A stretch of 64,000 bases of DNA from Pseudidiomarina homiensis. Lineage in GTDB: Bacteria; Pseudomonadota; Gammaproteobacteria; Enterobacterales; Alteromonadaceae. The DNA lies in assembly GCF_003987225.1 (NCBI RefSeq), contig NZ_PIPX01000001.1, forward strand, positions 124,001-188,000, in the 5' to 3' direction. Shown here one piece after another: positions 58,251 through 59,858 of the stretch. The position numbers were made by a program, and so were the translations under genes. The notes under the pieces were generated by a model. The model made no database searches. It had not been told where the DNA came from and was given only the letters and a program-made list of their open reading frames with translations. The first letter of the stretch is position 1, and each line of letters starts with the position of its first letter.

Positions 58251-59858
58251 ATGAGTAAAGATTTTATCTTACCGGACATCGGCGAAGGCATCGTTGAGTG
58301 CGAAATCGTTGAATGGCTTGTTGCTGAAGGCGACACCATCAAAGAAGACCAGCCGGTGGTCGACGTGATGACCGATAAAGCTTTAGTGCAGATCCCCGCC
58401 AAAGAAGACGGCGTGGTGAGCAAACTTTATTACGAAAAAGGCGACATCGCCAAAGTCCACGAACCGCTCTTTGCCATCACCGGCACCGACGATTCCAATT
58501 CAAATGGATCGGCGGACAACGACGTAGCCCGCAGTTCTACTGCGGGGGAACCTGAACCCAGCAGCAATGCCAGCTCAGGAAGCACCGTCACCGACTTCAT
58601 CCTTCCCGATATCGGTGAAGGTATCGTCGAATGCGAAATTGTCGAATGGCAAGTCAAAGAAGGTGACGTCATCGAAGAAGACCAGCCGGTCGTTGACGTA
58701 ATGACCGACAAGGCTTTGGTACAGATCCCCGCGAAAGAACACGGCGTCGTCGAAAAACTTTATTACGCCAAAGGCGACATCGCCAAAGTACACGAACCAC
58801 TCTTCGCCGTCCGCGTCGAAGGCGAAGTAGCCCGTAGTTCTACTACGGGTCAAACCAGCCACAACGACAATGCTCAAGCCAGCAATGCTCAAGCTTCCGC
58901 CGCCAACTCGTCCGCCGCCAACCCAAGTCAAGCCGACGCCCCACAAGCGGCGCGCCAAGGCAAAGCCATTGCGAGCCCGGCGGTTCGCCGACGTGCCCGC
59001 GAACTTGACGTCGACATCAGCCAAGTCCCCGGCTCCGGCGCCAAAGGCCGCGTGATGAAAGAAGACGTCGAAAATTACGTAGCCCGTGGTTCTACCACGG
59101 GGGAAGCTTCACCATCAGCACAAGTGTCGGCAAAACCAACTGCCACTTCTGGCGGCACCCGCACCGAAGCCATTCGTGGGGTGAAAGCGGCCATGGCAAA
59201 AGCGATGACCGAATCGGTCAGCACCATTCCGCACTTTACCTATGCCGATGAGTTCGATCTGACCAACGTCATGGCGCTGCAGAAACAGTTGAAAGAACGC
59301 TATAAAGATGAAGGTATTCGCATCACTATGATGCCATTCTTCATCAAAGCGTTGTCACTTGCGTTGAAAGAGTTCCCGATCATGAACGCGCAAGTAAATG
59401 CCGATTGCACCGAGATCACTTATTTTGATGATCACAACATCGGCATGGCAGTAGACACCAAGATTGGTTTGTTGGTACCTAACGTCAAACAGGTACAGAA
59501 CAAGAGCATTATCGATATTGCCAACGAAGTCACGCGCTTAACGCAAGCGGCTCGTGAAGGCCGTGTCGCGCAAGAAGATATGAAAGGTGGCACCATTTCC
59601 ATCTCGAACATTGGTGTGATTGGCGGTACCGTAGCGACGCCAATCATCAACAAACCGGAAGCCGCTATTGTGGCACTGGGTAAAGTTCAAGAACTCCCGC
59701 GCTTTGACGCTCAGGGTAACGTGGTCGCACGCAAAATCATGAATGTGAGCTGGTCAGGCGACCATCGCATCATTGATGGCGGCACCATAGCCCGCTTCAA
59801 CAAGCGTTGGCAGGAATACTTGGAAGACCCAACCTCGATGTTGGTGCATATGGTTTAA
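58251..59858 (+). CDS. bkdB: Branched-chain 2-oxoacid dehydrogenase E2 (dihydrolipoyl acyltransferase) with two lipoyl domains
   Basis: 535 residues. Two nearly identical lipoyl domains (about 1-78 and 113-190) have the lipoylated lysines K43 and K154 in MTDKALVQIPAK. An E1/E3-binding domain follows (about 240-276, SPAVRRRARELDVDI), then the acyltransferase core (about 305-535) with DHRIIDGG (H505, D509). Each of the three linkers contains a copy of VAR(S/G)ST(A/T)G(E/Q) encoded by a 19-bp palindrome. One lipoyl domain is usual for bacterial branched-chain E2 (from memory), so the second looks like a duplication. No E3 gene follows; a terminator does. Confidence 0.96.
   Translation: MSKDFILPDIGEGIVECEIVEWLVAEGDTIKEDQPVVDVMTDKALVQIPAKEDGVVSKLYYEKGDIAKVHEPLFAITGTDDSNSNGSADNDVARSSTAGEPEPSSNASSGSTVTDFILPDIGEGIVECEIVEWQVKEGDVIEEDQPVVDVMTDKALVQIPAKEHGVVEKLYYAKGDIAKVHEPLFAVRVEGEVARSSTTGQTSHNDNAQASNAQASAANSSAANPSQADAPQAARQGKAIASPAVRRRARELDVDISQVPGSGAKGRVMKEDVENYVARGSTTGEASPSAQVSAKPTATSGGTRTEAIRGVKAAMAKAMTESVSTIPHFTYADEFDLTNVMALQKQLKERYKDEGIRITMMPFFIKALSLALKEFPIMNAQVNADCTEITYFDDHNIGMAVDTKIGLLVPNVKQVQNKSIIDIANEVTRLTQAAREGRVAQEDMKGGTISISNIGVIGGTVATPIINKPEAAIVALGKVQELPRFDAQGNVVARKIMNVSWSGDHRIIDGGTIARFNKRWQEYLEDPTSMLVHMV
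58528..58546. repeat. bkdB linker palindrome, copy 1
   Basis: CCCGCAGT-TCT-ACTGCGGG: perfect 8-base arms and a 3-base centre. It encodes ARSSTAG (within residues 92-100) between the first and second lipoyl domains. It is preceded by GTAG, as are the other two copies. Confidence 0.85.
58831..58849. repeat. bkdB linker palindrome, copy 2
   Basis: CCCGTAGT-TCT-ACTACGGG: perfect 8-base arms. It encodes ARSSTTG (within residues 193-201) between the second lipoyl domain and the E1/E3-binding domain. Compared with copy 1, arm position 5 is T instead of C and its partner is A instead of G. Confidence 0.85.
59083..59101. repeat. bkdB linker palindrome, copy 3
   Basis: CCCGTGGT-TCT-ACCACGGG: perfect 8-base arms. 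It encodes ARGSTTG (within residues 277-285) between the E1/E3-binding domain and the catalytic core. Compared with copy 2, arm position 6 is G instead of A and its partner is C instead of T. Confidence 0.85.

Follow-up and report, generated by a model that had tools for sequence, protein, structure and literature searches.

The closest described counterparts of the repeats reported here are the GTAG-class REP elements with their RAYT/TnpAREP transposases (PMC3733652; PMC8266576). As in our case, the published accounts place GTAG directly 5′ of a palindrome and describe head-to-head pairs and a RAYT gene flanked by the repeats. According to PMC8266576, TnpAREP cleaves single-stranded REPs, and a Stenotrophomonas REP has an identical layout of stem, loop, and tag: in REPtron Sm, as here, GTAG is followed by 16 paired bases interrupted by three. 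In Marinomonas, the copies are likewise described as concentrated near the transposase. PMC3733652 describes intragenic REPs in several species, proposes linkers and loops as harmless sites, and gives the example of recB, in which two Xanthomonas species carry different REPs at nearly the same place; its main text makes no mention of Idiomarina. Two further systems concern palindromes in coding DNA. Rickettsia palindromic elements (RPEs; PMC2229807, PMC3767692) are described, like ours, as palindromes in frame in conserved genes, with same-site insertions in orthologues. Their reported length is 105-146 bp (PMC2229807) versus 23 bp here, and a RAYT partner gene, identified here, sets our element apart from the published descriptions. 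An earlier note on this DNA was reminded of RPEs: the in-frame insertion in conserved genes bears out the likeness, the 23-bp unit does not, and the element works like an RPE but is not one. PARCEL (PMC2996958) is palindromic coding DNA that is also thought to be mobilised; it is described as forming amphipathic domains of 25 residues, repeated in tandem in ORFs to which no function is assigned, whereas here about eight polar residues are added to housekeeping proteins.

Three features distinguish the present repeats from known GTAG REPs. They have a stem sequence of their own, confined to this genus in the searched samples: the GTAG pattern with at most one mismatch occurs in 16 of 26 genus genomes, and the exact pattern in none of 196 genomes sampled from other genera of the order. 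They are inserted in the linkers of all three E2 enzymes, RodZ, and Der, and also in HscA; and their internal sense copies share a single frame. As intragenic REPs and the suggestion of linkers are already present in PMC3733652, this is a new REP family with unusually rich in-frame copies rather than a new kind of element. Judged by titles and the opening lines of abstracts, the searched literature contained no account of REPs in E2 linkers or in proteins of Idiomarinaceae. The name REP means extragenic, yet one genome has in-frame REPs in all three E2 enzymes, Der, RodZ, and HscA.

The window, i.e. the whole 64-kb stretch of DNA that was analysed, contains the gene of a BkdB-type E2 protein with the following features:

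58251..59858, + strand: E2 gene (BkdB-type dihydrolipoyl acyltransferase), 535 aa, from the ORF list, with Pfam Biotin_lipoyl (twice), E3_binding, and 2-oxoacid_dh
58260..58478, + strand: first lipoyl domain, aa 4-76 (best stretch of Pfam PF00364)
58524..58546, + strand: REP copy 1, GTAG plus 8-bp stem, TCT loop, CA/TG arms, predicted peptide VARSSTAG
58593..58817, + strand: second lipoyl domain, approximate limits from similarity to the first (PF00364 counted twice in E2)
58827..58849, + strand: REP copy 2, TA/TA arms, predicted peptide VARSSTTG
58968..59072, + strand: E3-binding domain, aa 240-274 (Pfam PF02817)
59079..59101, + strand: REP copy 3, TG/CA arms, predicted peptide VARGSTTG
59157..59843, + strand: catalytic domain, aa 303-531 (Pfam PF00198)

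The second PF00364 stretch was counted by the Pfam scan and positioned by alignment to the first. The E2 ORF lies directly downstream of 399-aa and 325-aa ORFs, the putative E1 alpha and E1 beta genes. In the NCBIfam scan the E2 protein falls below every equivalog cut-off, and we take it to be BkdB from gene order, general knowledge, and the label in the earlier note.

That note had described three palindromes preceded by GTAG, in frame and one per linker, all opening on the middle base of a GCC codon, encoding VAR(S/G)ST(A/T)G(E/Q), and lying between folded domains. Each of these points holds. The copies begin at aa 92, 193, and 277, in the linkers joining the two lipoyl domains, the second lipoyl to the E3-binding domain, and the E3-binding to the catalytic domain, respectively, in agreement with the Pfam domain limits. 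The palindromes proper, without GTAG, span 58528-58546, 58831-58849, and 59083-59101, and the longer peptides are VARSSTAGE, VARSSTTGQ, and VARGSTTGE. The general unit is GTAG followed by CCCGNNGT-TCT-ACNNCGGG, in frame. With up to three mismatches, only these three sites match in the window (six rows, each palindrome matching on both strands), whereas 100 shuffles of the window gave 0.05 matches on average and never more than 1; chance is therefore excluded as their origin within the window.

The host genome (G000; 2,612,526 bases, 2.61 Mb, 6 contigs) was searched with three patterns, which gave 83+98 matches (two mismatches, some places on both strands), 95+75, and 67+88 (no mismatch). A looser rescan covered the stretches fetched around the listed matches, and its total is thus a lower bound: at least 177 copies, 81 on the + strand and 96 on the - strand, in 77 clusters, 34 of which are exactly head-to-head '+-' pairs and 18 single copies. 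A strand bias, with mostly + copies near the RAYT gene, had appeared among the matches listed first; these later strand counts showed it to be an artefact of that shorter list. The majority of the copies lie outside identified genes. The unit totals 23 bp, with an 8-bp stem, a 3-nt loop, and GTAG outside the pairing at one end. Among 126 copies scanned with a demand of at least six pairs and 16/19 fixed bases, the arms are TG/CA in 62, CA/TG in 31, TA/TA in 31, and mismatched in 2, while all eight stem pairs are kept in 117, across the three arm types. The tag is GTAG in 104, GTAC in 11, GTAA in 8, and different in 3, a tally that is biased as the scan scores the tag too. The paired arm changes that the earlier note had seen between the E2 copies (CA/TG, TA/TA, TG/CA) are thus real, and are subtypes common to the whole family; the covariation reflects these few subtypes. 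One regular pair array places eight alternating copies in about 310 bases (C1:1176564-1176872).

A single Y1_Tnp gene was found in the host genome (C1:1244791-1245129). Its protein matches NCBIfam NF047646 (REP_Tyr_transpos, REP-associated tyrosine transposase) with 150.5 bits against a cut-off of 80, and the gene has REP copies on either side, the layout of a REPtron. Within 100 kb of it lie 119 of the 177 copies, versus 13.6 expected under an even spread over the genome. Given a dispersed family of at least 177 copies and a RAYT gene flanked by the same repeats, the E2 palindromes are GTAG-type REP elements; they have the tag, the short palindrome with a small loop, the high copy number, and the head-to-head pairs (BIME/REPIN) by which REPs are known. 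The earlier note, in which the GTAG REP/RAYT family went unrecognised, had proposed a genome scan, and the large dispersed family was found by that route. REPs also lie directly upstream of two pseudopilin-like genes (GFTLVEV), within over-called N-termini, in the host (C1:1235914-1236797, with a four-copy array) and in the relative G002 (C21:154100-154643); they are possibly leader elements.

Across the genus there are 25 Y1_Tnp loci, from 19 of the 26 genomes. GTAG palindromes occur within the fetched 1.5-kb flanks of eight, and seven of these eight are less than 1 kb from a der match, the exception being that of G014. For the other 17 loci (e.g. L142-L153 and L163-L165), the search found no such palindrome out to 1.5 kb; they may belong to other groups of the family. 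Wherever both are seen, RAYT-adjacent stems and in-gene copies are of the same subtype group: GGCG in G004, G025, and G022; TA, CA, or TG in G000, G021, G007, and G015. G014 has CCTGACGT stems beside its RAYT gene, and no in-gene copy was found in it. RAYT identity to the host protein falls in the same order as this grouping, from 99% in G021, 79% in G007, and 72% in G015 to 60-63% in G004/G025/G022 and 51% in G014. Against so simple a picture speak the copy-carrying genomes G002, G003, G012, and G019, where no RAYT like that of the host was found in the 6-kb stretches beside der; a partial match only was present in the 6 kb beside der of G010. Beside the RAYT gene of G014 (locus L155, about 755-1232), a divergent REP forms a tandem array in which GTAGCCTGACGTTCCACGTCAGG recurs every 159 bases.

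The in-gene listing for the host covered single copies, together with clusters in which an ORF reaches 150 aa or more. Six identified genes contain 14 internal copies (BkdB 3, SucB 2, AceF 5, RodZ 2, Der 1, and HscA 1), all 14 in sense and in the same frame, with the predicted peptide VAR[S/G]ST[T/A]G or a near variant; three further copies form C-terminal protein ends, again in this frame. It reads GTA GCC CGY RGT TCT ACY RCG GG. Three of the six frames of the element are free of stops with TA arms and four of six with CA, TG, or GC arms, so that the use of one frame only is unlikely by chance. The other sense frame has a TAG stop with TA arms and aromatic residues with the remaining arm types; frame 0 gives small, mostly polar residues for every arm type. 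A recount of the six genes over the genus yielded 55 sense frame-0 and 2 antisense copies, to which HscA and a YjbH-like gene of G002, and a YjbH-like gene of G007 (YjbH being identified by Pfam for G002 only), add 3 sense and 1 antisense copies. Beyond the six genes, the census covered regions of three genomes, with 61 copies scanned in G002, 26 in G007, and 7 in G003. Altogether 58 of the 61 internal copies detected by script are in sense frame 0 and none is in another sense frame, a count that omits copies in the first part of ORFs with probably over-called starts, where other frames do occur. These omitted rows comprise ten host clusters (including both pseudopilin-like leaders and the RAYT leader), two pseudopilin-like leaders and four ORFs in G002, and two ORFs in G003. 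Also omitted were ORFs without a checked family, of 110 aa in G000 and of 128 and 134 aa in G007 (all sense, frame 0) and of 162 aa in G002 (sense, a frame other than 0), and the C-terminal copies, three in G000 and two in G002, all in sense frame 0. The three antisense copies (HscA of G012, RodZ of G015, YjbH of G002) each lie near a sense copy in the same gene and with it are complete head-to-head pairs in frame; visual inspection added one more antisense partner, in the G007 YjbH gene, which stands outside the three of 61.

Our explanation, which we consider very probable, is that RAYT-mobilised GTAG-type REPs survive in tolerant linkers and loops when in sense frame 0, and are later replaced, converted, or decayed. 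REPs would be unable to move autonomously, and the host RAYT would mobilise them in the form of single-stranded hairpins, with GTAGCCCGYRGTTCTACYRCGGG single strands as the expected target for binding or cleavage; this chemistry is taken from the described systems. Most insertions into genes would be purged. Retention would occur where a disordered linker or a surface loop accepts about eight more residues, as in the E2, Der, and RodZ linkers and a presumed loop of HscA, and selection for a harmless frame would leave the one that yields a small polar peptide. After insertion, copies may spread between the linkers of one gene, be replaced or converted by other family copies, or decay.

Presence among orthologues is patchy. 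Copies were detected in BkdB of 5 of 25 genomes, SucB of 3 of 25, AceF of 10 of 26, Der of 6 of 25, RodZ of 4 of 23, and HscA of 5 of 18, leaving 20 BkdB and 22 SucB orthologues without a detected copy; these counts include partial genes for AceF and Der of G018, BkdB of G017, and HscA of G010, G014, G022, and G024. In HscA of G010 and G014 the REP site is beyond the partial sequence, and the 331-aa BkdB fragment of G017, inspected to aa 300, has no such peptide. Among 80 named BkdB loci, a list that may leave out the host genome itself, in-frame copies occur in three, from Pseudidiomarina sp. CB1, P. halophila, and P. atlantica. On a tree of gap-free blocks of BkdB, SucB, AceF, and Der from 23 of the 26 genomes (without G017, G018, and G020), copy-carrying genomes fall mainly in two clades, with G015 (RodZ copies) apart. 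The first has the carriers G000/G021/G002/G003/G010/G007 and further includes three genomes that lack copies in these genes, G024, G013, and G016; G024, the sister of G007, nevertheless has five pattern matches in its genome. G002, adjacent to G000/G021 in the tree, is without the two SucB copies. The second clade has the carriers G004/G019/G025/G012/G022, next to G006 without copies; in AceF, Der, and HscA it carries GC-arm elements of its own (VARRSTPG), the arms being TC/GA in Der of G025. Hence AceF, Der, and HscA are occupied in both clades, by different arm subtypes. With many copies elsewhere, a REP-family transposase gene flanked by them, and presence or absence among orthologues, the mobile palindromic element that the earlier note had offered as one option is the one borne out. 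The linkers diverge too fast for an empty site with clear insertion ends to be read in the alignments of related species, though presence and absence are visible there.

Subtypes also turn over at single sites. The same Der position has TA/TA arms in G000 and G021 and CA/TG arms in G002, G010, and G007; the HscA copies of G000 and G021 differ by exactly two paired changes, and their flanks differ strongly too, so that the two copies may have been inserted separately. Between species, most arm changes are paired. We infer conversion or re-insertion as the cause of this turnover: replacement or conversion by other copies of the host family would change both arms together, and best accounts for the paired switches. 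That the changes were instead made in place, by templated hairpin correction during replication without conversion or new insertion, is possible but rather unlikely. The two paired changes in HscA of the sisters G000/G021 would suit such a repair, as would a paired change at a third stem position in 5 of the 126 scanned copies, but the changes lead to arms of the types that prevail in the genome (TG, CA, and TA, 124 of 126 copies) and lie mainly at stem positions 5-6 rather than over the whole stem. In AceF of G004/G025, linkers 1 and 2 resemble each other in the bases 3′ of the REP, which points to some spread within one gene, probably by ordinary recombination between its linkers. Decay is seen as an ATAG tag in BkdB of G021, a broken pair in BkdB of G002 and in SucB of G000, and copies with only five and six pairs in G007. 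The palindrome is neither limited to a single gene nor free to take silent changes that break its stem, though some in-gene copies have decayed.

Fourfold sites are more alike within shared in-gene copies than over the remainder of the genes: 8 of 40 differ against 442 of 1034 for G000 versus G002, and 4 of 25 against 541 of 995 for G002 versus G007, with P < 0.05 in 7 of 10 species pairs, which are non-independent and in which only copies recognisable in both species were compared. Their amino acids are no better conserved (e.g. 5 of 96 against 66 of 2985 differ between G000 and G021). Together with the shared arm subtypes, this bears out the copying at the nucleic-acid level suggested in the earlier note. 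It could also count against the RAYT-REP reading, as such synonymous conservation could come from selection acting on the nucleotides themselves. The palindrome would then be kept in genes by selection at the level of mRNA or DNA, e.g. as a ribosome-pausing hairpin between domains or for message stabilisation, and the E2 copies do lie between domains. The fold check gives such a hairpin mixed support: the predicted RNA folds of copies 2 and 3 beat shuffles (z -3.45 and -2.49), and copy 1 forms no hairpin in its flanks (z -0.45). Against it are also the many BkdB and SucB orthologues without a detected copy, the altered tags or broken stems in G021, G002, G007, and SucB of G000, and the restriction of the fourfold test to mutually recognisable, non-independent comparisons; we hold such selection to be improbable. 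Most improbable is that VAR(S/G)ST(T/A)G is itself a selected linker module with the palindrome as a by-product: it would suit a flexible linker and the one-frame census agrees, but most copies lie outside identified genes, orthologous linkers manage without it, antisense partners are likewise in frame in RodZ, HscA, and YjbH, the amino acids of shared copies are not favoured, and paired arm changes and silent-site conservation would be left unexplained.

Under RAYT-mobilised insertion and turnover, the in-gene copies might even be a standing, translated REP subpopulation, in which RAYT-driven replacement or conversion rewrites the linkers of essential enzymes with the subtype of the host. We put this forward as a rather doubtful extension; if true, a mobile element dictates the sequence and length of flexible linkers across the genus. 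Within the genus, sites that are filled, empty, decayed, or switched in subtype form a natural series, which could be used to study the movement of REPs by RAYT, the insertions that are tolerated, and arm change by conversion versus templated repair.

Two other repeats were seen in the E2 linkers of relatives. In AceF of G006, G012, G017, and G022, a palindrome with 6-bp arms, GG[G/T]GTCTGAC[A/C/G]CC, is repeated in frame. It was considered as a second mobile palindrome (GGKGTCTGACVCC) of some clade-2 relatives and rejected as undispersed, since 12 of its 14 matches in the genus (in 6 of 26 genomes) are within AceF, those of the four genomes just named. In linker 2 of BkdB of G003, the 12-base GACGTAGCCCGT, which joins a codon upstream of the REP to the 5′ portion of the REP itself, stands three times consecutively in frame (DVARDVARDVAR).
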